Shown here: positions 21,288 through 62,146 of the stretch, in pieces
Layout of the letters: every line of letters starts with the position of its first letter
How positions within the stretch are numbered: position 1 is the first letter of the stretch
NCBI RefSeq assembly: GCF_030463535.1
Contig: NC_132892.1
Location: 29,542,341-29,606,340, forward strand
From: Salminus brasiliensis
Taxonomy: Eukaryota > Chordata > Actinopteri > Characiformes > Bryconidae
Reading direction: 5' to 3'
Length of the DNA stretch: 64,000 nucleotides
Translations under genes and position numbers: made by a program
The notes under the pieces: generated by a model
The model's database searches: none
Seen by the model: only the letters and a program-made list of their open reading frames with translations
Told to the model about the DNA's origin: nothing

Positions 21288-24200
21288 TTATTTTGTATAC
21301 GTGTTCACAGTGTCCCCCGACATAATTTCGACCCTCATTTCAGTTGGGGAGTGGGGGCTGTCGTAGCCCAGCGTTAAACTCCTGGATGATGTAACTCCAT
21401 CTCCATCTTCTGAGGCTTCCTGGCCAGCTTTTTCTTCCTGCTCAGACTTCTCTCCGGGGCTATCTTCCTTACTGATGAGAGGGCAAGATGAACCCTGTGG
21501 TGTCTGTAGTACGATGGTGCTTTCTGAATCAGGGTTGAGGGAAACTGGGGCTAGTTCCACAGATACTCTCCTCGGCGTGTACACGAGAACACATTTTGGC
21601 AGGTCTGTTTTCTGTCAAACCAGAAATGTCTTTAAGTACACAATCAAATGTACAAACATGCCACCACACCTATATTACAACCTCTCATGGAGGCTATCCA
21701 GTAGAACCACTAAGCTAATGACCTTTGAACAGCGATTTCAAAGCTAATAACTGCTTATTCATACTGTGTGTTTACCTCCTTTTCCACCCAGACATAATGG
21801 ACCTAGTTTAAAAATGTAAATTACATCTAATATTTAAAGCAAATGAACTCAATACAATACAGTGACTGGTAGCAGATGGATGATTCTCCTCTATTAACTA
21901 TCAAAATAGTCAGTAGACTTCACAGAATATTACCAGGGTATCTGGGTATCCACGAAGACTCAACTCCTTGATTTTCTTGTTGAGTTTCTTTGCCAAAAAC
22001 ACCATGGCCAAAGACATAAGGAACATCACCAGCAAAACAACCAGTGGAATGAGGTATGCAGTGATTGGGACAGCTGTGGAAGATACAGAGAGAAGTAAAT
22101 GGCACAATGCCTTTCAACAGTGTGGCTCAGGTCTCCAATCTAGACATTGAATCCAGTTTCCAGTCCTGGATTTTGTTCTCGTTGGCAGTTAAGGGAACGG
22201 TTACTGTAGTTGATTGGCCACGTAGTTTCACACCTACCAAGGATTTTATCTTAAGAGTGTACTGCCATTAACTGTTATCTACATTAATCTGTGCATTCAT
22301 TTGATTTATTTGCGTTTGTTTCTTAAATTTAATAGAAAGGCCGTTTTGTGGTTCTTTAATTGAATAGAAAGGCCATTTTTTGGTTGTCACTACCATCTAT
22401 ATTAGCGACGATATTTTCTGAAGATTTGTTCAGTAGCCAGTTATTTAAACGCTACCAAGTATTAACAAAATGGGCTGGAAAACAATACACCATGATGATT
22501 GATGAAACTGGACATTTAAAAGACCTCAAAACAATATGAAAATCAATGTGGTAAAACTACGTTACTGTGTCCCGTAATAGCAGAGAATAAAATTTTCTCC
22601 ATGAAAATCACCAACTAATCACGGGCAATTTATTTCGAAGGTTTATATTAAACATTTTTCAAACTCAGGAACAGAGGTTGGAAAATGATTATGTGAAAAT
22701 GAATCACTATATTATTAATCCATTAAAACACAAATGCCAGTATATAGACCCATACTTAAATTTCTCACCCTCCAACAACATAGGATACACATTATTTTCA
22801 TCAGGTACTGAATCATTTCTAGAAGTTACCAAATCATTTCTAATAGATACTGAATCATTTACAGCAGATACACAATTATAACATACTGAATCTATTGATG
22901 CCGGCATAATAGATCCTAAATAATGTATAGTAGTTACTGAATCACTTATAATAGATCCTGAATCATTTATGGAAGATGAAAAATTTATAGTAGTTACTAT
23001 AAAAATAACTGGCAGCAGTAACTGAACTGTTCATAACAGATCCTGTAACATTCATAGAAGTTACCAAATCCCTACTAGGAGATGCTGAGTCATTTCTTGT
23101 AGATACTGAATCATTTACAGCAGAATTGGGAATTTTAGTTTTCCATGATAGTAGCGGCCCTTTGAAGCTAGCTAGCACTGTGTCTGCTAATGTGAGCAAG
23201 GCTGTTGTTGATATACTTGCGTGAACTTACTGGGCTTCAGGCTGCCACGGTAACAGAGAGGATCTGTTTTCTGAATATAGGTTTGCCTGATAAATCCAAT
23301 GACGGTGATGCAGTACTCCTCCTGTTCTTCTGGGAATGGCACGGCAGACTCACATGTTTCCAGAGTGCACTGAAGCGACTGCACCTAAAACAGAGTCCGA
23401 TACTAGTGTAAGGCTCACATGACAGTTTTCTATATTCTAGTTTTCTGCTGCTGGTGCAGCACAAAGCTGCTGTTTGTGTTATAATCAACTCTTAGAAGCA
23501 GATACAGACTTTATCATACACTTTAGCCTGCATTATACTGCATTTAGTAAACATTATAGACCCACATACGGCAAAGGACCACTCACCGAACCTGTCTGGC
23601 TTCAGTTCAGGTTTAGCTTTGGTGTGTGGCCTGTTTTTACTGCTCAAGTGTAAAAATCTGAGCCTCTATGACAAGGGACCTAACTGTGATGGCTAGATGA
23701 CTGGCTTAGAATATCTCCAAAACACCAGGCAGGTCTGGTGAGGTGTTCCTGGACAACCACTAAACAGGTGACAGGGTCATGGCTAAGTCTTACTGATGTG
23801 ATCCATGGAGACCCCACCTCCCAACTTACAGGACTTACAGTATCTGCTGCTATCGTCTTGGTGCCAGATACAACAGAGGTCTTGTGGAGTCCATGCCTCG
23901 AATAAATTTGTTCAGATGATAATCGTTGCCAAGTAAAATAAAATAATAATTTATAAACACAAAAGATTTTTGCCATGGCTCCTTTGTATGCTTAAAGTTA
24001 AACTATTTACATTTTCTTTAAATTTCTTCAAGGGAATGTTAGTTTTCCAGGATAGGAAGTTTCTGTCTTGGGTTTGTAAAAAATTGCTTTGATTTCGGCA
24101 TGCCTGCGTCATCTGGCATGGTGTCTGCTAATGTGAGGAAAGCTGTACTAATATTTTGAGATGCGCTTATAATTTATGCAAATATTAAATTCAACAATCA

Positions 24201-27200
24201 ACCTTGTGAGTTTTTAATAATCAAAAAACAACCAAATGGTTGTTGTTCACATGCTTGTGTGCACTTACCGGACATGTTTTTTCCATGGTGTTTGAGAGGT
24301 TCCCCAATGTGCTACTGATGAAGTAACACAGCTTGTTGTCTTTCTCAGAGAGATTTCGTAGAGCCACTGTGTGTCTGTACAGATGTAAAGGGTTTCTGAA
24401 CGTAACGATCAGCTGACGATCTCCGGGTCTCAGCTTAATTTCAGGGAACGTAAGATTACCTGTGAACAGAAAAGAGAGTCCTATTAAAGGTCACAAACAT
24501 TTCTACAGACCTAACTGCTGAATACAGCCCTTAAATCACAGGGCAGAACAAGATTTACCTGCCATGCTTAACAGATCCCATGGGCACCCCATAGACTTTT
24601 ACGTTGTGTAAAGTGTCTAAAATGGCCTTTTTGCTCTGTTAGCAGGAAGCTAATCTGTTCTGACAACTTCTGGCTCCAGTCTGATCAGCTACAGTTTTAA
24701 AAACAATGGCGGCTGCAGCACCAAATAGCTTTTTAGAAGTCCCAAAAAGTATGAAAGTATGAAAGAACCTGAAATTAGCTCTGAACTAATAGGTGGTTTT
24801 TGCACCGGGCAAACTTTCAAAGGCACCTGAGGAGAAAACACACAGACGCCATTGTAGACAATGGAGCACCAGAAACGGCAAACCCAGCATAACTGTTGTA
24901 TCTTCATGTTTGAGGATGGTCCATTCCCAGTATAGACATGGAGCATGCGCCGTAGAACCGGCCCATCTACAGTGCTCGATGTTCATACCTCATGCACCAC
25001 CGACTCTGTGTTTTGAGTTGTTAAAATACGAAGCTGGAAGCTGCTCTATCCCACACAGCACAACCAAGGAACAAAGAAAACAGGCCCCAGTGTTTATATG
25101 GAAAGGAATTTTGGGATTGCGTAGATAACTGGGTGAAGGTGAAGTTACAAGGACCTCCCATTTTCTCCAGAGATCACATTATACAATTGTTATTTGCATA
25201 CAATGATTTAAAATTAAATTATGTGAAGTTTAATGACACATTGATTGACTTAAAAAAACAGACTGTAAACACCCACTGATCAAACACAGTCAACTGTAGT
25301 TGTTGGTTTGTGTGTTTGTGCTCTTTGGGCTTGACTGTGAATAAGGAATATTTATAAGGCCATATCTAATGACTCTATTCGGTCTAATTTGTTCAACCCT
25401 CTGGAGTCTACCAACACGCCTGTGCGCCAAATTCAATGTTTCTTGATGTTTCTATTAATATATGTGCAATAATTCAGTATAGAAATGCAGTCTAGTCTGT
25501 AGACTCCATCCTTTCCATTGTAAGCCATTGCCAAATTGTACGTAATTTACATTCGTAGTTACAGGGCTGTGAAGACGAGTCGTCATACTTGTCTTTGCCT
25601 CTTGCTGTGTCTAACTGGTGGATTTGTGTGTCCGTCATCTGCCTTTTATCTGTAATTGGTGAATTTGTTCGTCTGTCTATGGCTTTGTATGAAACTAACC
25701 TACGGACACTCAAAAACTCATCTTCTTTCTCTCTTATATATTTTTTTTTATTTAGACATTTCACTGCCTTGTAAAGCAGAGACTCTGGTAAACCCGTTGC
25801 AAGCACCAAAACAACCTGTCCACACGAGCAAAGCAATGTTTTCACCAGAAAACAGTCACAGGTATCTCGTCACACGCTGCTCTCGGTCACATGGAGTCAC
25901 ATTACAGAGAGAGCTGAGACTGTTCTGAACTGTTTGATATAAAACATATCTAATCTACAAGTGTCTTTAAAGGTGAATTTAAGAAGTTGTACAGACCCTC
26001 CTAAGACCTCAAAGGGTTAAACCGACAGTGTGGCACTTAACCTGTAACTTGCGTTTACAGTTTTGTCACAATAGGAATTATAAGTGCTCAACTTTAACTT
26101 TTTTTGAGGGGAAATCAATCGATTAGATTAATTGACAAAACAATTGATTGGAAATCAGTCGTTAGTGGCAGCCTCGCCTTTTTTTTCTCGGTTTTGCAGG
26201 GAGAGCGTTTTGCCTAAGCTGCTATTTTCTGTTCAGCGTTACCGGAGGCCCCGCACCATGCTTTACAAACACTTATTTGACTCTTATCTGTCATAATGTT
26301 TAGGCCTCCAAAGCTTCATTCAGAATATGTCCATTAAACACAGAATTTAATGTTGACAAGAAAGACAAAAAGCAACCGTGTTAAAGATGTAAAACTTTGA
26401 ACTCACATATGACGTTTGTCATCAAAAGAGAATTAAAAGAGAACGATGGTGAAACTGCATATTCGCCATCCGTGGTCTTCACTTTCACTGTGTAGCTCCT
26501 GTACCCTGGCTCCTGCAGATACTTTGATATGTTGTACTGAGTTTCCCACGTAGTAATCGGTTCATGGTAAGAACTGCATACAACAGAGAAACGCAGAGTC
26601 TCCATCAGAGCAGTCTTGACTTCACAATTATTAAAATTTTTATATTTATACAATTATTATATTATAATAATGTTGTCCACTTTGCACATTGGGAATACAT
26701 TCAGTACTTTCAATATATCAATATTTCAATTTATTTCATTTACAGTCTAAACTCCTAACACTACATTCAATACACTATATGGACAAAAGTATTGGGAGGT
26801 AGGGAGTAAAGTTTTGTTGTGACGTAACCGTTGATTACATTCAGCAGTTTAAGAGTGTTAGTAAGGTCGGGATGTTGGATGATCACCACCCCACCTCATC
26901 CCCAACTCCCCAGCTCAGCCCAAAAGTACTGGATGGAGCTCCACCATGATTCCAGAGTTCCACTGCTCCACAGCTCAATGCTGGGTGCTTTACACCCCAC
27001 TAGCCCATGCCTGGTATTACGCAGCACAGTGCCAATGGGTTCATGTTTCTCTGCTCCAGAGAGTCCCATTCTATTGGCTGTACTTCTCTACATTAGAGAT
27101 TAGACAGGCTGTGTGTGTGTGCATTTGAAGATCTGTGTCAGCAATGGATGCAACTTATAGCAGCTGAATACATTTAATAGAAGGGGTGTCGGTGTCCACA

Positions 27201-30200
27201 AACATTTGTCTTACAATTCTGAACGTGGACTAAATAAGGCTGCATTACTGTTGGATACCCTGTGAAGTCCATCAATTTTGAAAGTGCAGAGAATCAAAGA
27301 GATCGAAACTTACTTAGTGTCTGCTGTGAGCTGTAGATGGAACTCTTGAGAAGTCGAGTTCCTGAGAAGATGAGAAGACCTCCAGTCCACCACAACTCCA
27401 TAAGTGTCACAGGTTACAGTCACATCGAATGAATGAACTGAAAGATGGAAAGGGTCAGAAAAAGAAAGACAGAGGAAAACAAATGACATGTCAGTCCTGG
27501 AGCCCATGCAGAGCACTACAGTATATGTACAGCTGCTGCAAAATACTGAGATGATGGTCTAAAGTCCTCATATTAATCTATTGTAATGAAGACATTTGGT
27601 CTTAGGATCAAAAGATGAATAAGACAGACTAGATCTTCAGCTTTTCTTTCCTGATATTAACATCCAGATGTGTTAAACAACTTAGACCATGGCTCCTTTT
27701 GGTGGAAGACCATCTAATGTTAAGGTAAACATATATATATATATATATATATGTTGTCACCATCATTAGTTACACCATAAACAGAGGGTGTGATTTGATG
27801 TGGTGTTCCTGCTGGAACAGGCCCCTTTATTCGGACTGGGTGGCACAGCATTCTGCAGCGTCTATTAGGAAAAGGCACATCTTTTATTTGATTGTTGTAA
27901 TTTTATGCCATTATATTACAAATTATATTAGAAACAATCAAAAAACACCCTTTAAATAATTCACAGAACGATTTTACACCAAAACGTAAAACTTATTATT
28001 TATTTATTTGTTTGTCAAATTATTCATATCTCCCCTAGCGCTAGCAATGCTCCCATGCTCCCAGTTCATTCAGACAACTGAATGAACTGCTGCAGTCTAT
28101 CAAAAGAAGGACTTTGAGGGATATATGAAGTTATAACAAAGGTCTATAACAAAGGGCGAGAGAGAGAGACAGAGACAGAGGAGGGTATTTACAGTTAAGC
28201 ATGAATAGCGTTTAGACCAGTTTCTCCACTTCTGAAGCAGCACACCCCATAATATCACTGTCAGTCACATCCTTTTCGGTGATCCGTGGCCAGTCATGTT
28301 ATGAGTGCACACACTTAAGATCACCTTACCTTCCGCAAGGCAAAATTTCAAATGACCAGTTTTTAGAAACACTGATCCGGGACCTACAACCACTGGTCAT
28401 TTTTATCAGAAACACCATATACAAACCATATACACTTTGTGGACAAAAGTATTGGGACACCCTCTCATTCATTATTTTATTTTCTTCCAAAATTAAGGGT
28501 ATTAAAGAGTTACTGTCTCTACTGACCAAGAATGCTTTCTACTAGATTTTGGAGGAACATTGCTGTGAGGATTTGATCACATTCAGTGACAAGAGCAACA
28601 GTGGGGTCAGGATGTTGTCACCTGGTATTAGGCATGGTGCCAACAGGTTCATAAGTTTATCTGCTCCCACGAGTCCTATTCTATTGGCAGTAGTTCTCTA
28701 GAGGGTCTAGATAATATATTTTTGTGCATTTGCACATCTGTGTCAGCAATGCAGGTCTGGGCCAGTGAGGGTAAGTGTACACCAGCAAAGTGGAGCTACA
28801 AGAGAGGGGTTTCCAATAAAGTGTCCAGTGAGTGTAACTAACTAACTGTACACCAGCAAGGAGAAGCTACAAGAGAGGGGTTTCCAATAAAGCGGCCAGT
28901 GAAGGAACTAACTGTACACCATCAGTCAGTTCTCTTAAGCATGGCTAGTCAACACTCTTAACACTGAAGGTACCTAAAAGACTATTTCGGAGTGACACCA
29001 TTAAAGGAACCACTCTTGGTTCTACTGAACATACTGAAAGGTTCTTCACAGAATCAATAGTGAACGCAGCAAAACTGACACCACAAAAGGAACCACTTTT
29101 GGTTCCAGAACCTTTCAGTTCAACTGAACCTACTAAAAAAGGTTTTCCACAGAATCAAAAGTGAAAGAACCTGGAGTGGTGCTATTAAAGAACCAATTTT
29201 GGTTCCAGAAAGGAAAGATGGAAAGATTCTTTACAGAATCAAAAGTGAAAGTACCAAGAAGACTCCATTGAAGAAACATCATTAAATGAACCACTTCTGG
29301 TTCTATACCCTTTCAGTTCTACTGAACTTCTACTGAACTAATGAACTTTCATAGAGTCCCTCCAAAGAAGTATTTTTAGTACCGTCACTTTTGAAGGTTC
29401 CCAAAAGATGTCACTAGAGTGGTACCATACAAGAACCTCTTTTAGTTCCAGAACCTTTCAGTTCTACTGAACCTACTGAACAGTTCTTTATAAAATCAAG
29501 TCATGGTACCAAAACACTTTATTGGAGTGACACCAAAAATGAACCACTTTTTGTTCTAGATACTTTAAGTTCTACGGAACTTCCGAACTTTTATGCCGTC
29601 ACTTCAATTAAGTCTTTTTAGTACCTACCTTCACTTTTGAAGACTTTTGAAATAACTGCACTGATACCATTCAAGAACCTCTTTTGGTTCCAGATCATTT
29701 CCGTTCTACTGAACCTACTGGGGCTCTTCTAAAGAATTTCTCAGAAGAAAAAAAATCATTTTTTAATTCTATTATTCATCCAGCTGTAAAAAATCCCAGG
29801 AGAAACCAATGACTAACTCCACCATGTTACTATTAGCTTCCCTGTTTTGCAAGTACAGTGGCAATTCACAGTGAGGATTAGGAAACTGCCTTCCAGCCTG
29901 ACGCATTTTGTATGACATTTCTTCATCAGATAAGCTCTGAAGAAGAAATGCGTACGCCGGGGGGAGGAGCACTCTCTGGGTCCTCATTTACTGTGAAATT
30001 CAGGTATGTTATGTTTCATTTTGACACCATGTGTGAGCAGGAATGGAGGCCCAATTATAGCTGACAGTAAATGAATAGTCAAATTAGCGAGCAGGGCAGA
30101 CGCTGTGTAGATCACAGAAGAACATAAGCTTCTAGGCCTAGCTGTGACCTTTCACCTTCTAATTACAAGCCTAATTCTGAGCCTAACTTTAAAATTAGGT

Positions 30201-33200
30201 ACACCAAACCACGCAAAACCACACATATCTTAGCCTGAAGACTAAATAACTGCTCTCACCTGCCTGAAATGTCTCAACATGTGGCATAAATGTGGGCAGT
30301 ATCTAGTTACAATCACATACAGTCAGATTTCACAGACTCTTTGATGGAAGTCTCATGACGTTTGTACTTGCTGTGACGTTCGTCGTCTAATCAAGAAGAA
30401 AGATCTGTCAGGAAATCCACAGTTCTACTTCAATACTGAATTGCTTATTGTTCCAAGAACTCATGAGCTGCTCACTTCTTAAGGTGTTCCTGGTTCCCTC
30501 TTGAGATAGAAATACCAGCACACAATGTGAAATGTGTACACAGTGGAACCAGTTGTTAGGTATGTGCGTAGGCGCTGAAACCTTACTGCAAAAAATCACA
30601 TCCGTGTTCTTCTTCTTCTTCTTCTTCTTTTTTATAGCACCTGCCCTGCCTGTTTTGTCAAGCTCCCAATTCATTTCCTACTTCAGGCACACATTTATAC
30701 ACTATTTTGACAAAAGTATTGGGACACCTGCTTGTTCACTGTTTCACCTGAAATCAAGGGCATTAAAAAAGAGTGTTTCATGCTTTTGCTGGAGTAACTG
30801 TGTCACTTGACTTGCTACTAGACTTTGGTGGAGCATTGCTGTGAGGATTTGATTGCATTAAACAGCATTACCAACTCCATCCATCATTCCAGAGAACACA
30901 GTTAGTTCCACTGCTCCACAGCTCCATGCTGGGGGGCTTTATACCCCTCTCGCCCATAACTGGCATTGGATATGGGGCCAATTGGTTCATCTTAATCTAC
31001 CCCAGAGAGTCTTATTCTATTTGCCATGCTTCTCTACAGGGACTAGACAAGATGCTTGTTTGTGTGTGTGTGTGTGTGCATTTGCACATCTGTATCAGCA
31101 ATGGGTGTAACTTAAAGTTGCTCATTAGAATGGGTGTCCATAAACATTAGGGCAGCCTCTGTAGCTAATCAACACATACAATACAATATTTTCAGCTAAA
31201 GCGAATGCACGGTTACTCTGATATTAATAGAATAAGCAATCAAAAGTCAAAACCATCAGTGTTAGGCATAGTACAGAGTCCCCTTTTGGGAGAAATCACA
31301 GCTTGAAAACACCTTTTGTAGCAGGTGAAAGAGTGGGGTTTTCCACACTCTTCTTTGCTGAAGGCCTCGAAATCTGAGATGTTCTGAGGTCGTCTTCCTG
31401 CAAAGCTGGTTTAAGGTCTACACACTATTTAAGATTTATACCTATGATCGTTAGGTCAGGGGACTGTGAGGGCCATTCTCAAGGTCTCTTCAAGAGATAA
31501 ATCAGAAAGGAGATCTCCTTAACAACAGTTTCACTGAGACAACCAGATATGAGATCAGACAGAAAGACAAAGGAGACTTTAGCAGAAGTCCCCTGCTGCT
31601 GAAATGCTGCTGTTTCCTGACAAAAAAAGGCCTGAGTAATCAGTAAGACATGTGCCTCGTCCTGAGATTCAGTACAGATCTCACAAAGTCTCACACTGTG
31701 CTCAATATGAACTCGAACAACTCTCACTGGGAGCCCAGATAACCAAACTGAAGCTCTTTTATTTTGGACAGATTATGTGAAGAACCAGTTCACTAGTAAA
31801 AAACAACTCAGAACAGTTGAAGATAAAAGATGATGGAGGAACAAGATGCAAGGATATAAACAGAGGAATTATGAGTAATATTTGAAAAGACCTGAATATA
31901 CAAATATAGCACAGGATATTCTGAAGAAACACCACTTATATGATTTGTTTATTATGTAAAATAATGTTTGATTAAGAAATAAAAGGTAAAACTGATCGGA
32001 CAGCTGTTTGTGATAACTGAACTGGACTGAAGATCTAGTCCTTAACCCCTTACTGCAGCAATGCTAGGCCTATTACTCTGTACCTACAGGGACTTCTGTA
32101 CAAACTGGTGGAGCAATTCTTTCGTAATAGAAGTTTGTAATAACACTTTAGGCCTGCCGGCGGATCATAGGCTGTTTGAGAGGTTAACTACTGAATAATT
32201 CTGCAGCTTTTTCATGATTTTATGGAGTTCTGCAAGAGATCACATCTACTGCTCTTTCTCCTAAGCAATCAAAGATCAACATTTGAGGAATCAGCATCTA
32301 CCAATGCTATACTAACAAAAATAACTGGCTGCAACACAACTCCAAAGCATGACAGATCCGCCCCCACGTCACAGTTGGCAAGGTTTCTTTTTTTTTTTTC
32401 AATAAATGTAGTTTGTTTTTCCAAACTTTCAAACGTATCTTTGCTGATTGTCATATGAAGTCAAACTATGAGTATTTTGCCACAATCAGTCCACAGGACG
32501 TGTTTCCAAAACTTGTCTGACTCCTGACCTGGACGCATACTTCAACCGCTGAGTTTTCTCAATAAAGTCTTCTATAAAGATCATGCTTGTGCAAACCATG
32601 CTGCACAGTGGAATAGTGCACCACCTAGGCCTGTCACAAACAAAATTTATTTGGACGATAAATTGTCCCAGAAATAATTGTGATAAACAATATTATTATT
32701 GTCATTTTAAGAGCACTTTACTTTTAATTATTAAAAATGTTAAAGTACCTTAGATAAGGCATACCAGCTCATTCACAAATACCCCTCAGCTAAATCTTCA
32801 TTCAGGTTCTTGACAGTCATATAGAGGTTCTGATTTGCTCTTACCAGCATAGAAGCAGATCTCTCCATGAACTGTACTGGTCTTTCACATCTCATCCTGA
32901 CCTCCACAGTTCTCTGGAACTACCATTTTCATCAGTCACAGCAAGATGAAGACCCTTGGCTATTGTCTTATAGCCTTCACCTGACTTATGATCTTGGTTT
33001 TGAAGGTTTTTGATGATCAATCAGCTGACAGATCCTATTTCTAAGTGCTGACATGTGGTGACCTGAGGCCTGATTTTAATAATCAAGGTCTGAGGCCTTG
33101 TCAAAAACACAAATAATCAGAGCACTTGTCACATTTTGGGTGATCAACCCTTGCACGGGCCCACGCTGAACCGAAAACACTGTGTTTTATGTTTGATTAG

Positions 33201-34164
33201 CTGTGAGCAGCTCTCTGGTTGTTCCTTATCTCACACACTCTCCCAATCATAAACTGCTTTTACAGTTTTTATATCGTTAATGTGTTACCATCATACACTT
33301 TGATCACTGTAAGGTGGGTTCCTGTGTACTTATGATAGTGACGTGGATGGATAAGTCATGACTCTGGGACCATTTTTTTTACCTAAAGGCTTACTTTTAT
33401 GAAAGTATCAGTGAAATAATAACTTCTAGAACTGCTGTAGAACTTCTTAGAACATACAGGTGGTCGGTGTGGCGCAACAGATAACACCACTACCTGCCAG
33501 TGAGCTACCACACCATGCGGGAGACTGGGGTTCAATTCCTGGTCTTGGTTACTGTGCTGCGCTACACCAATAAGAGTCCTTGGGCAAGACTCCTCAAGAG
33601 TCGCTCTGGATAAGAGCGTCAGCTAAATGCCATACATGTAAATGTAAATACAGGTCTGGTTTCCCAGACAGGGATTAAGCCTAGTCCAAGACTAGACTCA
33701 ACACCTGGCTGAGAAATCGGCCCACAGTGTAAATTAGCAGTACAGATATTAAACTATGGGAACCATTAAAAAATAGAAATTTTTGTCATGACTAAAATAT
33801 GGACTAAACATATCAATTATGACTAAATAAAAGTGTAAATTAACCACAAATAACCCATTAAAATCGACCTTGAGTCCATTGATCTGAGCAGATGGAACTG
33901 CCCACACATCTGGAGGCAGAATTCAGAATTCAGCCAAGATCCTTCAAATCACAGCAAATTCAGACACCTGGGTGTTAAATGGGGGCGTTTGTTCCTCAGT
34001 TGGTGTTTTTCTTAAATAATAAGCCTAGAGCTGCCATAAACATGGTCTATGGCTGATTCTATGTCTGAAAAAGCAGTTTCGCCTTCAGAGTACTCACCAG
34101 CTGTAAGGTCCCTCAGGAGAACAGCAGCGAGCACGGGGAGGAAATCACGGAGCCTAGCCCGCAT
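21288..34164 (-). CDS. ifngr1: Interferon-gamma receptor chain 1 (CRFB13/17-type), complete, 7 exons
   Basis: Ligand-binding chain of the type II interferon receptor, a class II cytokine receptor at the cell surface. Exons in coding order: 34164-34098, 27437-27314, 26573-26407, 24459-24269, 23384-23231, 22073-21934, 21611-21288. The phases agree and give 388 aa. Exon 1 encodes a hydrophobic signal peptide (MRARLRDFLPVLAAVLLRDL). Residues about 23-234 form two fibronectin-III-like domains, with VDWRSSHLL, YNISKYLQEPGYRSYTVKVK, FPEIKLRPGDRQLIVTF and YCITVIGF. Several N-glycosylation sites are present (NST, NIS, NLT, NLS, NLS). TM is about 238-262. LPK at 285-287 matches the JAK1-docking LPKS box of mammalian IFNGR1. 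GYDSPH, with Tyr364, matches the YDKPH STAT1-docking box. The tail is shorter than human (388 vs about 489 aa in total). Fish have two such genes, and which one this is I infer only from its full-length tail. Confidence 0.94.
22800..23135. repeat. Degenerate minisatellite in ifngr1 intron 5
   Basis: Roughly 27-33-bp units built on (G)ATACTGAATCATTT, AGAAGTTACCAAATC and ATAGATCCTGAATCATTT repeat about ten times with much divergence. Short open frames on both strands (repeating TESF / NDSV-like peptides) come from the repeat and are not genes. Confidence 0.7.
23655..23910 (+). mobile_element. Tc1-like fragment in ifngr1 intron 4
   Basis: Plus-strand remnant of the 13476/59333 family. It has ACTGTGATGGCTAGATGACT, ATCTCCAAAACACCAGGCAG, ACAGGTGACAGGGTCATGGC and GTCTTGTGGAGTCCATGCCT. 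Both ends are missing and the frame is broken. Confidence 0.72.
24470..26406 (-). other. ifngr1 intron 3
   Basis: About 1.9 kb without gene or recognised full repeat. Mixed unique-looking AT-rich sequence. Confidence 0.5.
26770..27212 (-). mobile_element. Family A MITE, near full length
   Basis: Begins TATATGGACAAAAGTATTGG and ends TGTCCACAAACATTTGTC. It has ATTCCAGAGTTCCACTGCTC and TTCTACATTAGAGATTAGAC in between. It lies in ifngr1 intron 2. Confidence 0.82.
28433..28765 (-). mobile_element. Family A MITE, internally deleted
   Basis: Begins ACACTTTGTGGACAAAAGTA, keeps the CTACTAGATTTTGGAGGAAC and CTATTGGCAGTAGTTCTCTA blocks, and lacks the central GGGGGGCTTTATACCCCTC part. Confidence 0.75.
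28960..29720. repeat. GGTTC / CTTTCAGTTCTACTGAAC degenerate array
   Basis: Repeated modules GAACCACTTTTGGTTC, AGAACCTTTCAGTT and CTACTGAACCTACTGAA occur every 60-130 bp with variable spacing. Many are short palindromes (GAACC...GGTTC). A similar cluster lies at about 42490-42710, and a shorter one at about 50935-51015. Confidence 0.65.
30705..31148 (-). mobile_element. Family A MITE, near full length
   Basis: Starts GACAAAAGTATTGGGACACC and ends TGGGTGTCCATAAACATTAG. It contains CCATGCTGGGGGGCTTTATA and a (TG) run near the right end. Confidence 0.82.
31225..33140 (-). mobile_element. Degenerate Tc1-type element (antisense)
   Basis: A long, frame-broken block with text typical of antisense Tc1-like transposons: TCCCCTTTTGGGAGAAATCA, TTAGGTCAGGGGACTGTGAG, CATGACAGATCCGCCCCCAC, CAGTCCACAGGACGTGTTTC and TGCAAACCATGCTGCACAGT. 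No intact transposase frame. Other insertions probably interrupt it. Limits are approximate. Confidence 0.5.
33462..33650 (+). mobile_element. tRNA-derived SINE, copy 2
   Basis: A box TGGCGCAACAG (33470-33480) and B box GGTTCAATTCC (33529-33539, one change from consensus). Tail TCGCTCTGGATAAGAGCGTC ends in AATGTAAATA. It is shorter in the middle than copy 1. It lies in ifngr1 intron 1, antisense to that gene. Confidence 0.87.
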
Positions 34165-34640
34165 CGTCTGTCCCTCAGAATATCGACACCCTCAAAGAAA
34201 TCGGGTAAGAAGTGGAGTTAAGCTCCTCACTGTGAACCAGCGGTTACTTAAACCCCACATTCCCGTTCTCAGAGCCGCAGCGCTGTGGTTCCCTATAGAA
34301 CGCCCCCGCGAGCCGTTTCCTAGCGATTCATTCGAACGACCAGATGACGCGAGCGCTTCCTTCTGCGTTCCGAGTAAACAGGCTCGCGCAACTCCATGGC
34401 TGTAATAGAACGGAATTCAGCAGAATTCAGAACGTTTGTGGATTCTGTGAACGGGCACGCGCTCCTAACGGTTCCGAGAGAGTTCTGGAACGTTTTTGAA
34501 CTCATTTCAAACGAGCGAGACGTTTAAATAATAATAATAATAAAAAAAAAACTACACGCGCTCTGTCTACCTGAGCGCACGTGCCCAGGAGAAATTCTCA
34601 GGTACGTCGGCGCCCCCTGCTGAGGCAATGACAGAGGGCG
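34165..34640 (-). promoter_or_regulatory. ifngr1 5' UTR and promoter, CpG-rich
   Basis: A GC- and CpG-rich stretch upstream of the ifngr1 ATG. It contains a CACGTG E-box at 34578-34583 and no clear TATA box. On the ifngr1 strand the ATG has A at -3. The unique sequence stops at about 34668, where the tandem array begins, so the proximal promoter is confined to about 500 bp. Confidence 0.6.
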
Positions 34641-34668
34641 GAATTACACGCGGATTTCCTTGTAAACA

Positions 34669-37600
34669 TTTACTCACTCACTCATTCACCCTCACTCTAT
34701 TCACTTACTGTGTCACTCACTCATTCACCCTCACTCTATTCACTTACTGTGTCACTCACTCATTCACCCTCACTCTATTCACTTACTGTGTCACTCACTC
34801 ATTCACCCTCACTCACTTCATTCACTTACTGTCACTCACTCATTCACCCTCACTCTATTCACTTACTGTGTCACTCACTCATTCACCCTCACTCTATTCA
34901 CTTACTGTGTCACTCACTCATTCACCCTCACTCTATTCACTTACTGTGTCACTCACTCATTCACCCTCACTCACTTCATTCACTTACTGTCACTCACTCA
35001 TTCACCCTCACTCTATTCACTTACTGTGTCACTCACTCATTCACCCTCACTCTATTCACTTACTGTGTCACTCACTCATTCACCCTCACTCACTTCATTC
35101 ACTTACTGTCACTCACTCATTCACCCTCACTCTATTCACTTACTGTGTCACTCACTCATTCACCCTCACTCTATTCACTTACTGTCACTCACTCATTCAC
35201 CCTCACTCACTTCATTCACTTACTGTGTCACTCACTCATTCACCCTCACTCACTTCATTCACTTACTGTCACTCACTCATTCACCCTCACTCTATTCACT
35301 TACTGTGTCACTCACTCATTCACCCTCACTCTATTCACTTACTGTCACTCACTCATTCACCCTCACTCACTTCATTCACTTACTGTGTCACTCACTCATT
35401 CACCCTCACTCTATTCACTTACTGTGTCACTCACTCATTCACCCTCACATCATTCACTTGCTGTGTCACTCACTTATTCATCCTCACTCACTTCATTCAC
35501 TTACTGTGTCACTCACTCATTCACCCTCACTTCATTCACTTACTGTGTCACTCACTCATTCACCCTCACTCACTTCATTCACTTACTGTCACTCACTCAT
35601 TCACCCTCACTCTATTCACTTACTGTGTCACTCACTCATTCACCCTCACTCTATTCACTTACTGTGTCACTCACTCATTCACCCTCACTCTATTCACTTA
35701 CTGTGTCACTCACTCATTCATCTTCACTCACTTCATTCACTTACTGTGTCACTCACTCATTCACCCTCACTCTATTCACTTACTGTGTCACTCACTCATT
35801 CACCCTCACTCTATTCACTTACTGTGTCACTCACTCATTCACCCTAACTCTATTCACTTACTGTGTCACTCACTCATTCACCCTCACTCACTTCATTCAC
35901 TTACTGTGTCACTCACTCATTCACCCTCACTCTATTCACTTACTGTGTCACTCACTCATTCATCTTCACTCACTTCATTCACTTACTGTCACTCACTCAT
36001 TCACCCTCACTCACTTCATTCACTTACTGTCACTCACTCATTCACCCTCACTCACTTCATTCACTTACTGTCACTCACTCATTCACCCTAACTCACTTCA
36101 TTCACTTACTGTGTCACTCACTCGTTCACCCTCACTCACTTCATTCACTTACTGTGTCACTCACTCATTCACCCTCACTCTATTCACTTACTGTGTCACT
36201 CACTCATTCATCCTCACTCACTCATTCATCCTCACTCACTTCATTCACTTACTGTGTCACTCACTCATTCACCCTCACTCTATTCACTTACTGTGTCACT
36301 CACTCATTCACCCTCACCAATTTCATTCACTTACTGTCACTCACTCATTCACCCTCACCAATTTCATTCACTTACTGTGTCACTCACTCATTCACCCTCA
36401 CCAATTTCATTCACTTACTGTGTCACTCACTCATTCACCCTCACCAATTTCATTCACTTACTGTGTCACTCACTCATTCACCTTCACCAATTTCAGTCAC
36501 TTGCTGTGTCACTCACTCATTCACTGTCACCAATTTCATTCACTTACTGTGTCACTCACTCATTCACCCTCACCAATTTCATTCACTTACTGTGTCACTC
36601 ACTCATTCACCCTCACCAATTTCATTCACTTACTGTGTCACTCACTCATTCACCCTCACCAATTTCATTCACTTACTGTGTCACTCACTCATTCACCTTC
36701 ACCAGTTTCAGTCACTTGCTGTGTCACTCACTCATTCACCCTCACCAATTTCATTCACTTACTGTGTCACTCACTCATTCACCCTCACCAATTTCATTTA
36801 CTTACTGTCACTCACTCATTCACCTTCACCAATTTCATTCACTTACTGTGTCACTCACTCATTCACCCTCACCAATTTCATTCACTTACTGTCACTCGCT
36901 CATTCACCCTCACCAATTTCATTCACTTACTGTGTCACTCACTCATTCACCTCACTCATTCACCTTCACCAATTTCATTCACTTACTGTGTCACTCACTC
37001 ATTCACCTTCACCAATTTTATTCATTTACTGTGTCACTCACTCATTCACCCTCACCAATTTCATTCACTTACTGTGTCACTCACTCATTCACCCTCACCA
37101 ATTTCATTCACTTACTGTCACTCACTCATTCACCCTCACCAATTTCGTTCACTTACTGTGTCACTCACTCATTCACCCTCACCAATTTTATTCACTTACT
37201 GTGTCACTCACTCATTCATCTTCACTCACTTCATACACTTACTGTGTCACTCACTCATTCACCCTCACTCTATTCACTTACTGTGTCACTCACTCATTCA
37301 CCCTCACTCACTTCATTCACTTACTGTCACTCACTCATTCACCCTCACTCTATTCACTTACTGTGTCACTCACTCATTCACCCTCACTCACTTCATTCAC
37401 TTACTGTCACTCACTCAATCACCCTCACTCTATTCACTTACTGTGTCACTCACTCATTCATCCTCACCAATTTCTTTCACTTACTGTGTCACTCACTCAT
37501 TCATCCTCACTCACTTCATTCACTTACTGTGTCACTCACTCATTCACCCTCACTCACTTCATTCACTTACTGTCACTCACTCATTCACCCTCACTCACTT

Positions 37601-38183
37601 CATTCACTTACTGTGTCACTCACTCATTCACCCTCACTCTATTCACTTACTGTGTCACTCACTCATTCATCCTCACTCACTTCATTCACTTACTGTGTCA
37701 CTCACTCATTCACCCTCACTCTATTCACTTACTGTGTCACTCACTCATTCACCCTCACCAATTTCATTCACTTACTGTGTCACTCACTCATTCACCCTCA
37801 CCAATTTCATTCACTTACTGTCACTCACTCATTCACCCTCACTCTATTCACTTACTGTGTCACTCACTCATTCATCCTCACTCACTTCATTCACTTACTG
37901 TGTCACTCACTCATTCACCCTCACTCTATTCACTTACTGTGTCACTCACTCATTCACCCTCACCAATTTCATTCACTTACTGTCACTCACTCATTCACCT
38001 TCACCAATTTCATTCACTTACTGTCACTCACTCATTCACCTCACTCATTCACCTCACTCATTCACCCTCACCAATTTCATTCACTTACTGTGTCACTCAC
38101 TCATTCACCCTCACCAATTTCATTCACTTACTGTGTCACTCACTCATTCACCCACACCAATTTCATTCACTTACTGTGTCACT
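34669..38183. repeat. 39/41/43-bp minisatellite array, 3.5 kb
   Basis: Units share TCACTCACTCATTCACCCTC and end TTCACTTACTGT or TTCACTTACTGTG. Three main variants are visible. A has CACTCTATTCACTTACTGTG (39 bp). B has CACTCACTTCATTCAC (41 or 43 bp). C has CACCAATTTCATTCAC (43 bp). A and B alternate from the start to about 36300, C dominates about 36300-37200, and all three mix to the end. By length there are about 85 units. There is no stop codon in any plus-strand frame because the motif lacks TAA/TAG/TGA, so the very long open frames are artefacts. Confidence 0.97.
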
Positions 38184-39618
38184 TAGTGAGTTGCTCTCTC
38201 ACTCTCTCACTCACTCACTCACTCACTCACTCGTTTCACTTTTATTTACTTACTGACTTACACTCTCTCACTCACTCACTCACTCTCTCACTCGTTTCAC
38301 TTTTATTTACTTACTGACTTACACTCTCTCACTCACTCGCTCTCTCACTCTCTCACTCACTCACTCGTTTCACTTTTATTTACTTACTGACTTACACTCT
38401 CTCACTCACTCGCTCTCTCACTCACTCACTCGTTTCCCTTTTTTATTTACTTACTGACTTACACTCTCTCACTCACTCGCTCTCTCACTCTCTCACTCAC
38501 TCGCTCTCTCACTCACTCACTCGTCTCACTTTTATTTACTTACTGACTTACACTCTCTCACTCACTCGCTCTCTCACTCACTCGCTCTCTCACTCTCTCA
38601 CTCACTCACTCGTTTCACTTTTATTTAATTACTGACTTACACTCTCTCACTCACTCGCTCTCTCACTCTCTCACTCTCTCACTCACTCACTCGTTTCACT
38701 TTTATTTACTTACTGACTTACACTCTCTCACTCACTCACTCTCTCACTCTCTCACTCACTCACTCGTTTCACTTTTATTTACTTACTGACTTACACTCTC
38801 TCACTCACTCGCTCTCTCACTCTCTCACTCACTCACTCGTTTCACTTTTATTTACTTACTGACTTACACTCTCTCACTCACTCGCTCTCTCACTCTCTCA
38901 CTCTCTCACTCACTCACTCGTTTCACTTTTATTTACTTACTGACTTACACTCTCTCACTCACTCACTCACTCTCTCACTCGTTTCACTTTTATTTACTTA
39001 CTGACTTACACTCTCTCACTCACTCGCTCTCTCACTCTCTCACTCACTCACTTGTTTCACTTTTATTTACTTACTGACTTACACTCTCTCACTCACTCGC
39101 TCTCTCACTCTCTCACTCTCACTCACTCACTCACTCACTCATTTCACTTTTATTTACTTACTGACTTACACTCTCTCACTCACTCGCTCTCTCACTCTCT
39201 CACTCTCTCACTCACTCACTCGTTTCACTTTTATTTACTTACTGACTTACACTCTCTCACTCACTCACTCACTCATTTCACTTTTATTTACTTACTGACT
39301 TACACTCTCTCACTCACTCACTCACTCACTCTCTCACTCATTTCACTTTTATTTACTTACTGACTTACACTCTCTCACTCACTCACTCACTCACTCACTC
39401 TCTCACTCGTTTCACTTTTATTTACTTACTGACTTACACTCTCTCACTCACTCGCTCTCTCACTCTCTCTCTCACTCACTCACTCACTCGTTTCACTTTT
39501 ATTTACTTACTGACTTACACTCTCTCACTCACTCGCTCTCTCACTCTCTCACTCACTCACTCTCTCACTCGTTTCACTTTTATTTACTTACTGACTTACA
39601 CTCTCTCACTCACTCGCT
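38184..39618. repeat. Second satellite, about 19 units with IRF/ISRE-like core
   Basis: About 19 units of roughly 55-90 bp. Each has a conserved core (GTTTCACTTTTATTTACTTA, CTGACTTACACTCTCTCACT) and a variable-length CACT/CGCTCTCT spacer. 17 of 19 cores read TTTCACTTTTATTT; the exceptions are near 38432 and 38523. It adjoins the 39-43-bp array and shares its CACTCACTC and TTACTTACTG words. It ends abruptly at CGCTCACTCTGGATCC. On the ifngr1 strand the core reads AAAAGTGAAAC. Confidence 0.95.
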
Positions 39619-39843
39619 CACTCTGGATCCCACCCGCCTGGGATCTCCGCGGTCTCTGATATCAGCTCCTGACCCCGTGCTAAGCTGCTGCGTCTCCTCT
39701 GATTTCTCTCGGCCTGTGTGAAGACCTCAGAAGATTACTTGCCAGGCTGGTGTAGATGACCTCTTTACCATCATGACACTGGATTTGAAGTTTACTGCTT
39801 GTGTTACGTAACACATTACAGCAGGGATTGACTGACAGCAAGG

Positions 39844-54785: not shown

Positions 54786-55763
<978 letters not shown>

Positions 55764-55828
<65 letters not shown>
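55764..55828. repeat. (TA)n microsatellite at the end of the CTAT array
   Basis: About 32 TA units directly following the CTGT run. Imperfect CTAT/TATC words resume after it to about 56000. Confidence 0.97.
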
Positions 55829-55832
<4 letters not shown>

Positions 55833-56359
55833 CTAGCTCCCTATTTATTTGTCTACTTGTTTGTCTGTCTACCTAGCTGGATATCTATCAATCTATCTAT
55901 CTACTTGCCTGTCTGTATATCTAAATACATATCTGTATTTCTGTTTGTCTGCATGTCTATCTGTTTCTCTGTCTATCTATATGTTTGTCTATCTAAATCT
56001 CTACCTGTCTCACATGCACACACAGCCTCAGTGCTGTTATACTGTGTTTACTCTCTGAAGTGAAGCTCTATGTGCTGCTTTTTCATTTGCAATTCAGTTC
56101 CCGCCTTTTACCCACCAACATCCCTAACTGTCACATCACTCTGCTGATTGACAGATTGACAAACAGCAGCAGCTCTCATGCCCCCCTCCTCCTCCTCCTT
56201 CTCTTCATCATCATCGCTTTTGGTTCAATATAGGCCAGCTGCACATCAACACTGCAAAATCCCTGAGATTTCTCGCGCAGCCTCATTGGCTGACCACTGG
56301 CCTGGATCTGGATCCTCTTCATCTGCATGTGTGAGCATGTGAGATGGTGCTTAACTCTC

Positions 56360-59500: not shown

Positions 59501-62146
59501 TGTTCCCTGGATGCAGTGGTCAGTACGTACCAATGATCCAAGGAAGGACAACCAGTTTACCAGTGACAGGGTCAGGGGTGCCCAAGGCTCATTGATACTC
59601 ATGAAGGCCTCACGTCACAACTTACAGGACTTAAAGGATCTACTGGTAATGTCTTGGAGTTCCAGATACCAAAGGACACCTTCAGAGGTTTTGTGGAGTC
59701 CATGCCTCAACTGTTTTGGCCATATGCACCAGTGGTTTTAATGTTGTGGCTGATTTGTATATGTGGAAACGATATATTGATACTGACCTTCTCTAAATTG
59801 GTGTACTGGGCCGGATGGATAGTCACTATTTGCCAACCCCTCTGCCTGGTTTACTTCTGTTTTGGAAACACAGAGCTGACAGAGGTTCACCCGAAGAGAC
59901 CCATAACCACAGCGGATTTAAAAGGACTAAAGTGTCTAATCTGGCTGAAAAGCAGCATTATCTGATTAACGATAGTGCCGAGTGAGATGCGCTCTGATCG
60001 ATCGCATTGGGTAGAGATCTCAGAGAGCATTCAGCATGACTGAATTGTCAACAGGCACGCGATTATGAGATAAGAGCACACTTTTATTAGCGCTGAGATA
60101 CTAAATTCATTTGGAGTAGAGTGCCTCAGGCAAGTAGTTGCAAATTACAGTTACAAAAACAAAATAAGCAATAATATGATATAATATAATAATAAAAAGC
60201 AATAAACCTCTAATGTTCATATTCTGCAGGAACATTTCTCCTAGATTCTGCTAGCAGTCATACACAGGGACTACTCATAGTGTTTGTTGGTGGATGTGTC
60301 CTGGCACTGGTCACAGTTTTAGCCTTTTGTTGTTCTGCAAAAGTTCCCTTTATTAACCCCTTAAACAGCCTAGGGCCCACCGGCAAGCTAAAAGTGAGTC
60401 CACACCTCTATTACCAGAGAACAGCCTCACCAGTTTGCACAGTCCCTGTAGATTCTGAGTAATATGCCTTCGTGTGTAATAAGGCTGGCTGCATTAAGGG
60501 TTCAAATTATAATGTTTTTATATACAGTTGTCAGTGTTTTTTGTGTTATGTGAACTTTAAAAGGGAGATCTCAGACCACTTTTTGTTCATATCACAAATG
60601 AGCAGACAGAAAAACCTTAATGTCTGTGTGCTGTGTACTGTGGTCCTCTTTCCAGATGTCTGAAAGTGCCACAGCCTTTTCCAGAAACCTCACGTTGTCT
60701 CAAGTTGTTTGGCCGGAAGAATTGTAAAAGGTCTATATGTGAAACAGAATGTGAAGCAGAGTTGGGCCACTTTGTATTCTCAATGTAAATGGAGCAAACT
60801 GAGGCTTGTTGAGGTGTTTTTGGGGCTGTTTAGAGAGGCATGCGTTTGTTTGACGTGTTCACATATGCAAAAAAAAAAAAAAACCTTTGATAATCAATGC
60901 TAGCAACAGTTGCTATTCACTATTCACATTCTTGACAGTTCCTAAATTCTCCTTCATTCCTCCAGCTTTAGAACTGTTCTAGAATGTTGACTCTCTATTA
61001 TATTGTTTTAGAATGCTGACTCTCATTTACACTGTTCTAGAATGCTGACTCTCTATTATATTGTTCTAGAATGCTGACTCTCATTCTCACTGTTCTAGAA
61101 TGCTGACTCTATTATATTGTTCTAGAATGCTGACTCTCATTCTCACTGTTCTAGAATGCTGACTCTCATTCTCACTGTTCTAGAATGCTGACTCTCATTC
61201 TCACTGTTCTAGAATGTTGACTCTCTATTATATTGTTCTAGGATGCTGACTCTCTTTCACGCTGTTTTACAATGTTCTTCTTCATTCCTCCAGTTGTAGG
61301 ATTACACTCCTCATTCACACTGTTCTAGAACGTTCTCCACCTTTCCACACTTATCTCAAAAAGCCATCTGATGTTCTAATATCTGCGCCTGTCCTTCACG
61401 CTATATGTTCTCCCCCTCCACATAGATTCAGGAAGGCATCTGATGTTTTTCCATTCACAGTGCTCAAGAACATTCTCCATTCACACGGTTCTAGAACGCT
61501 GTCCCTATTGATATTGTTCCAGAATGTTCAACAACGTCTTTATTGTCATTGTTCTCGAATATTCTCCATCATTCTCATTGTTCTACGTTATCCCTCATTC
61601 ATTGTGATCCTAGAGCATCCTCTTCACACGGTTCTCGCAGTGAGAAGAGAACCTCATCCACACTGTATGTGTGAACCAAGAACTATGTGTGCTGACTGGA
61701 AGTTCTCATCTCCTTGTTTCTAGGGTTACCACTGGAACGAGCTCTCCCCCGATGAGGACGTGAAGTCGGAGGTCATCCTGTATGTGGTCATCCCGCTGGC
61801 GTTGCTCCTCGTCTTGGGTCTTGGGGGCCTCTTTGTCTACCGGAGGTGCTCGCGCAGTAAACTCGGCTTGGCCAACATCATCGCCCTTGACCTCCAGAAT
61901 GCTGAAAGCAGCGCTGAGTTCCTTTCCTCGCTCACGGCGAACAGTGAGCGCCTCAATAGCACCAGCTCTGACGTGTCTGACGGTGTTTTCCTGATGGTCT
62001 ACCTTCCACCACCCTACGAGGAGACACTGACCAAGATAACCCGGGCAGCGAGCCTCTCCAGCGGCAAAGATGTGGAGTCCATAAAGATGGAAGACCTGGA
62101 GGCCAAGCTGTGTCCTGAACTGAAATCCAGTGGTCGCTATGTGTGA
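56560..62146 (+). CDS. smim28: Small integral membrane protein 28-like, two coding exons
   Basis: Single-pass membrane protein of unknown function. Exon 56560-56670 ends in CAG before GTAAGC, and exon 61724-62146 follows TTTCTAG. They join in phase 0 to give 177 aa. The N-terminus (SSWMKFGPAGRGTYDWM) matches, from memory, the conserved start of SMIM28. Residues about 54-76 (VILYVVIPLALLLVLGLGGL) form one TM helix followed by the basic stop VYRRCSRSK. The LPPPYEET region (PPPY at 132-135) matches the LPPSYEEAT of the human protein and is a PPxY motif, the type bound by WW domains of NEDD4-like ligases. The ATG has A at -3. Upstream, CTCCACAG at about 56473-56480 could be the acceptor of a 5' UTR exon. 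The fish protein is slightly longer than I recall for mammals. Confidence 0.85.
56735..57240. mobile_element. MITE family C, inverted copy split by a SINE
   Basis: Relative to 50050-50475 this copy is inverted (GTTTCTCCTGGACGCCCCCC, AGCGTGGAGGATGTGTTCAA, TTACCATCATTAAGCCCTGA, CTCTAAATAATACTAGACTC). A tRNA-derived SINE (56821-57039) sits between CAGCAGCAGCAG and AGCAGCAGCTCACC. The other copy is uninterrupted at this point, so it is the empty site. The outer inverted repeats are eroded. Confidence 0.82.
56821..57039 (+). mobile_element. tRNA-derived SINE, copy 4, with target duplication
   Basis: A box TGGCGCAACAG (56829-56839), exact B box GGTTCGATTCC (56891-56901), tail AAGTCGCTCTGGATAAGAGC and end AATGTAA. 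It is flanked by AGCAGCAG on both sides, though the CAG-repeat context makes the exact target duplication ambiguous. Confidence 0.9.
59333..59762 (+). mobile_element. Tc1-like transposon, internally deleted
   Basis: Left terminus CCAATCAGCCATTACATTAA and right terminus GTGGTTTTAATGTTGTGGCT form inverted repeats of the widespread fish Tc1 family. Inside are GATGTAACTAGACGACTGTG, AAGGAAGGACAACCAGTTTA and GCCCAAGGCTCATTGATACT, remains of the N-terminal DNA-binding part of the transposase. The catalytic half is gone, and the frame is broken. Confidence 0.85.
60970..61275. repeat. 29-bp minisatellite before smim28 exon 2
   Basis: About ten units of TGTTCTAGAATGCTGACTCT plus CATTCTCAC or a CTATTATAT variant. 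Most units carry the TCTAGA hexamer. Diverged single units continue to about 61600. It ends within about 450 bp of the exon. Confidence 0.9.

Follow-up and report, generated by a model that had tools for sequence, protein, structure and literature searches.

A locus-private minisatellite with an IRF-like half-site upstream of an ifngr1-like gene in Salminus brasiliensis

The ifngr1-like gene and its proximal region

We analysed a window of 64,000 nucleotides of the Salminus brasiliensis genome (contig NC_132892.1, positions 29,542,341 to 29,606,340 of the forward strand; all coordinates below are positions within it). The window contains a seven-exon ifngr1-like gene at 21288-34164 (reverse strand), whose exons (34164-34098, 27437-27314, 26573-26407, 24459-24269, 23384-23231, 22073-21934, and 21611-21288) were picked by eye and joined across GT-AG introns to give a protein of 388 amino acids. 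The features expected of an ifngr1 product are present in this seven-exon model: a signal peptide and a transmembrane stretch (both judged by eye), and, in the tail, an LPKS-type JAK1 motif (LPKCVL) and a YDKPH-type STAT1 motif (YDSPH). The goose IFNGR1, as described in the accessible part of PMC4544874, has LPKSLV as its JAK1 site and YDKPH as its STAT1 site, so that each of our motifs is one or more residues off the goose form. No Pfam family matched the protein at E up to 1, and the PDB sequences gave three unrelated matches (E = 1.4); the name of the gene therefore rests on motifs and layout, in which the predicted protein resembles an interferon-gamma receptor. A search of the assembly (1.07 Gb, 103 contigs) with the protein returned seven matches, all of them its own exons, at a single locus; two ifngr1 genes, crfb13 and crfb17, are reported for teleosts in the available part of PMC10988753. 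Elsewhere in the window, an ORF at 13946-14305 matches the Pfam family LTV (low temperature viability protein; E = 3.4e-13), and therefore an ltv1-like gene lies downstream of the ifngr1-like gene. Within intron 1 of the latter, positions 33460-33650 look by eye like a tRNA-derived fish SINE.

The 507-bp stretch upstream of the ATG (34165-34671, reverse strand), which matches the assembly once, is the probable proximal promoter and 5′ leader. It contains no copy of the IRF half-site AANNGAAA and one match (TTCTGTGAA, at 34443-34451) to the GAS-type pattern TTCNNNGAA. This predicted GAS-type site is a more conventional interferon-gamma candidate than the array described below, though it is a single match of a kind that chance can yield.

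Two related arrays form one minisatellite

Beyond this stretch lies a single (CACT)n-derived array of 4.95 kb (34672-39623, delimited by overlapping TRF rows), which begins 508 bp upstream of the ifngr1-like ATG. The part on which the original prediction was based, here called array B (38184-39623, plus strand), is its distal portion; the larger adjoining portion between array B and the gene, array A (34672-38183, plus strand), had been missed. Array A is more than twice as long as array B and consists of about 85 units (for example TCACTCACTCATTCACCCTCACTCTATTCACTTACTGTG; from TRF, anchors, and comparison of cores), with 84 anchors and 80 of the 83 measured spacings between 37 and 43 bp. The plus strand is poor in G in both portions (0.045 in array A and 0.037 in array B).

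Array B is made of 19 units of 53-89 bp (TRF and a scripted unit table), which span 38184-39605 when delimited by TGACTTACACTC (19 occurrences). Each unit consists of a (CACT/CTCT)n spacer and a core, TTTCACTTTTATTTACTTACTGACTTACACTCTC, which usually reads AAAAGTGAAAC on the minus strand, that of the gene. The script counted 17 exact copies of the 14-mer TTTCACTTTTATTT in the window, every one within 38234-39585, in agreement with the earlier count of 17 of 19 units; the exceptions are unit 4 (TTTCCCTTTTTTATTT) and unit 5 (TCTCACTTTTATTT). The distance given earlier was also correct, array B lying 4.0-5.5 kb upstream of the ifngr1-like gene when measured to the ATG at 34164. In 16 of the 19 units the length is 1 mod 4, so the spacers of most units change in whole 4-bp steps. 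Units 4 and 13 do not fit this pattern, nor does the first unit, which has an arbitrary left edge.

The cores of the two portions are alike: core A (TCAC-TCTATTCACTTACTG) and core B (TCACTTTTATTTACTTACTG) match at 17 of 20 columns, a score reached by 3 of 1000 mononucleotide shuffles (6 of 1000 with a second variant of core A). Relative to core A, core B has C/T differences at two positions and an insertion of one base, and it is preceded by GTT.

Both units are private to the locus. Allowing up to two mismatches, the 28-mer core of array B has 18 copies in the assembly, all 18 inside array B, and a 24-mer of array A has 63, all 63 inside array A. With its units arranged head to tail at a single locus and within the size range of about 10-100 bp, as established by TRF, the unit table, and these genome-wide counts, the array is a minisatellite. 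A dispersed satellite family as the source of the core is ruled out, since neither the 28-mer nor the array A 24-mer occurs elsewhere at up to two mismatches. The tested flanks (39624-39840 and 34165-34671) each match the assembly once and thus give no hint of a repeated carrier; we therefore rejected the idea that a repeated mobile element brought the array in. We also considered an ORF running across the array, where the frames without stops seem to arise mechanically from the scarcity of stop codons in the repeat.

IRF-like motif content of array B

On the minus strand, array B has 18 matches to AANNGAAA in its 19 units (38234-39585; script counts and unit listing). The half-site definition is that of the original prediction, whose statement that the core satisfies it is thereby confirmed. 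The density is 12.5 per kb in 38184-39623, compared with 1.29 per kb over the remainder of the window; array A has just two copies. Seventeen of the 18 half-sites are AAGTGAAA within the exact 14-mer, and 15 are followed by C, giving 15 copies of AANNGAAAC in 38184-39623. The longer string AAGTGAAAC is identical in 14 of the 19 units; unit 4 has AAGGGAAAC.

Complete ISRE and ETS-IRF elements are missing from array B. The accessible part of PMC3214047 defines the ISRE as GAAANNGAAA and the ETS-IRF composite element as GGAAGTGAAAC, and reports the ETS-IRF element GTTTCACTTCC for IRF8 targets. The full ISRE, with its two GAAA half-sites two bases apart, occurs 0 times in 38184-39623, and the best match in the unit tested is 7/8, as expected from the earlier description of the core as one base off the ISRE core. 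The second half of the ISRE, with its AANN lead, is intact at 18 places, whereas the first half is AAAA and not GAAA. From one unit to the next, the half-sites are separated by 53 bp or more, so that no GAAANNGAAA spacing is formed between units. The ETS-IRF composite, scored as GGAANNGAAA, has no match of at least 7/8 in 38184-39623. The nearest complete element is GTTTCACTTCC, with which GTTTCACTTTT shares 9 of 11 bases; the AAGTGAAAC half is common to 14 of the 19 units, but the ETS half is lost, its GGAA being AAAA in array B.

How often chance gives such matches

Array B units are copies of one another, and the test for chance therefore belongs on a single unit: 19 copies are one event copied 19 times. 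In a tandem array, a motif present 19 times counts as a single chance event rather than nineteen. For one 73-bp unit (38801-38873) we generated 1000 dinucleotide shuffles and scored them by consensus strings, those for the ISRE and ETS-IRF being as in PMC3214047 (accessible part). The unit's score was reached by 384 of the 1000 shuffles for GAAANNGAAA (7/8), by 157 for GAAANNGAAACT, and by 188 for the half-site AANNGAAA; for AANNGAAAC this was rare (4 of 1000). The PRDM1/BLIMP1 core is AGTGAAAG; for BLIMP1 we scored a longer consensus string, and for PRDI a consensus string as well. For these, 644 (BLIMP1) and 1000 (PRDI) of the 1000 shuffles reached the unit's score.

Two other comparisons were made with the same motifs. 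Among 300 permuted motifs, the score was reached by 56 for GAAANNGAAA, 40 for GAAANNGAAACT, 29 for AANNGAAA, 1 for AANNGAAAC, 43 for BLIMP1, and 177 for PRDI; among 676 segments of 87 bp from the window, the corresponding numbers are 84, 61, 63, 8, 143, and 263. Among the six motifs, the half-site with its C is thus unusual and the others are ordinary, six being the number tried; the whole vertebrate transcription-factor set would give many more chances of a match. The supposed resemblance to PRDI/BLIMP1-type sites did not hold, and such sites are ruled out: AGTGAAAG is absent from 38184-39623, and shuffles reach the scores as often as given above. Genome-wide, the 14-mer has 169 copies, 17 of them in array B, and its reversed control has 131.

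CACT-type arrays elsewhere in the genome

Arrays similar to this one occur at many other places. The array query had at least 65 matches in the assembly (40 of 995 first-look candidates were scored), which fall at the window locus and at least 37 other places (fetched as 38 loci). Among the matches listed, 36 of the 37 other places have a CACT-type stretch of 0.4-6.9 kb. The units differ from locus to locus by eye (20 sampled loci; TRF consensus units for 38 loci). For comparison of motifs we used the 37 loci (36 places) with a usable stretch under a composition mask; one of the 38 fetched loci (L046) was dropped with no masked stretch remaining, and L012 and L013 form one cluster. These control loci were chosen by likeness to the query and are not a random sample of arrays.

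Near-ISRE matches (7/8) are at least as dense as in array B in 4 of the 37 control loci, and exceed 5 per kb in 11 of the 37, both counts coming partly from GA-rich runs (L031 and L036, for example, have a period-2 GA array by TRF). The full GAAANNGAAA occurs once each in two of the 37 loci. Exact AGTGAAAG cores number 88, 35, and 17 in three control loci, in TRF spans that include non-CACT repeats. Exact AANNGAAA is densest in array B compared with all 37 control loci, the next being L036 (9 in 800 bp), and AANNGAAAC is absent from all 37 control loci tested. Of all the loci compared, array B therefore carries the IRF half-site in its cleanest form, and it does so next to a gene that resembles an interferon receptor.

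The arrays tend to lie near contig ends: of 38 places, including the window locus, 15 are within 5% and 25 within 10% of an end (binomial p = 1.6e-6 and p = 1.1e-9, respectively; 20% expected for the latter), where contigs are taken as chromosomes and neighbouring places, which are not fully independent, are counted apart. The window locus itself is about 20% from its contig end. Several of the kilobase-long CACT-type arrays are nearly without G on one strand (0.000-0.007 in L009, L014, L018, and L028); these patterns may partly be a search bias, the query itself being G-poor.

Origin of the array and possible function

We consider it very probable that the array is a locus-private minisatellite whose IRF half-site is fortuitous; the analysis shows its anatomy, the privacy of its units, how alike the two cores are and that many similar arrays exist, whereas the way in which it arose, and that it has no function, we infer. 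Its growth from a (CACT)n microsatellite would have combined replication slippage, which altered the spacers in 4-bp steps, with multiplication of the unit through unequal exchange or larger duplications. Changes in the distal core, together with the preceding GTT, would have created the IRF half-site (AAGTGAAAC on the gene strand) by chance, and it would then have been copied along with the unit. If array A keeps the older form, the IRF-like core would be the derived state of the distal part. The contrast between a constant core and varying CACT/CGCT spacers, to which attention had been drawn, is real, but is explained by 4-bp slippage, since CACT spacers slip and the non-repetitive core cannot. 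Selection on the motif should make it less variable than the remaining core. This is not what we see: 2 of 19 units differ within the 14-nt motif and 1 of 19 within the following 20 nt of core (small numbers), so that the motif is no better kept than its neighbourhood. Three further units have a change at the base that gives AANNGAAAC its C.

The array resembles minisatellites (VNTRs) grown from tetranucleotide microsatellites in its head-to-tail units of 37-89 bp with tetranucleotide spacers, in its restriction to one locus, and in the near identity of its units; the CACT-type arrays used for comparison concentrate near contig ends, as described above. It differs in being about 5 kb long and in placing two kinds of related unit next to each other. 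Links between minisatellite VNTRs and differences in expression have been reported in humans (PMC8096271, accessible part), and the whole 4.95-kb array could be a length-polymorphic VNTR that alters ifngr1 expression through spacing, nucleosomes, or DNA structure, with the IRF-like core irrelevant. Its start 508 bp from the ATG and its strong strand asymmetry (see the plus-strand G values above) agree with such a role, but similar arrays occur at many other places, and we regard it as improbable.

Still less credible is a homotypic IRF element (an enhancer, a silencer, or an IRF sink) in which IRF1, IRF8, or IRF4 bound to the AAGTGAAAC half-sites would alter ifngr1 output in response to interferon. 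It would draw on 18 AANNGAAA and 15 AANNGAAAC on one strand within 1.4 kb, 4.0-5.5 kb upstream of the ATG; on the 9/11 match of GTTTCACTTTT to the ETS-IRF element GTTTCACTTCC (PMC3214047, accessible part); and, for IRF function as against chance, on the rarity of AANNGAAAC (4/1000, 1/300, and 8/676) and its absence from the 37 control loci. Against it, neither a full ISRE nor an ETS half is present (AAAA, not GAAA or GGAA), the single-unit ISRE score is reached by 384 of 1000 shuffles, successive half-sites at least 53 bp apart give no GAAANNGAAA spacing between units, and the motif is no better kept than the neighbouring core. The proposal of a homotypic IRF cluster acting as an interferon-responsive or repressive element, or as a decoy sink, is thus unsupported, with the ISRE score found in 384/1000 and the half-site score in 188/1000 shuffles; control of ifngr1 by the array is possible but unsupported. 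We give as little credence to a model in which slippage of a CACT microsatellite turned an ordinary minisatellite into 18 private IRF half-sites that, by binding or titrating IRF proteins, would tune the interferon-gamma receptor according to the number of copies.

Our literature search, which lay outside most subscription journals, found nothing relevant on a minisatellite at a fish interferon-gamma receptor gene or on minisatellites with IRF sites. Should IRF proteins bind the array after all, it would clearly exemplify how a young repeat can give rise to a feedback element at the gene for an immune receptor. GGAA microsatellites are bound by EWS-FLI1, as binding experiments have established; array B too is a tandem repeat carrying a transcription-factor core, but there the core is the repeat itself, whereas array B has one putative half-site per unit.

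Other repeats in the window

TRF also reported a (TCTA)n tract of 1.1 kb at 54786-55903 and a 29-bp tandem repeat at 60973-61337. The units of the latter contain the palindrome TTCTAGAA, which by eye is heat-shock-element-like or GAS-like, and the repeat adjoins an ORF (61724-62143) that matches TMEM154 weakly, with a score under the Pfam cut-off.
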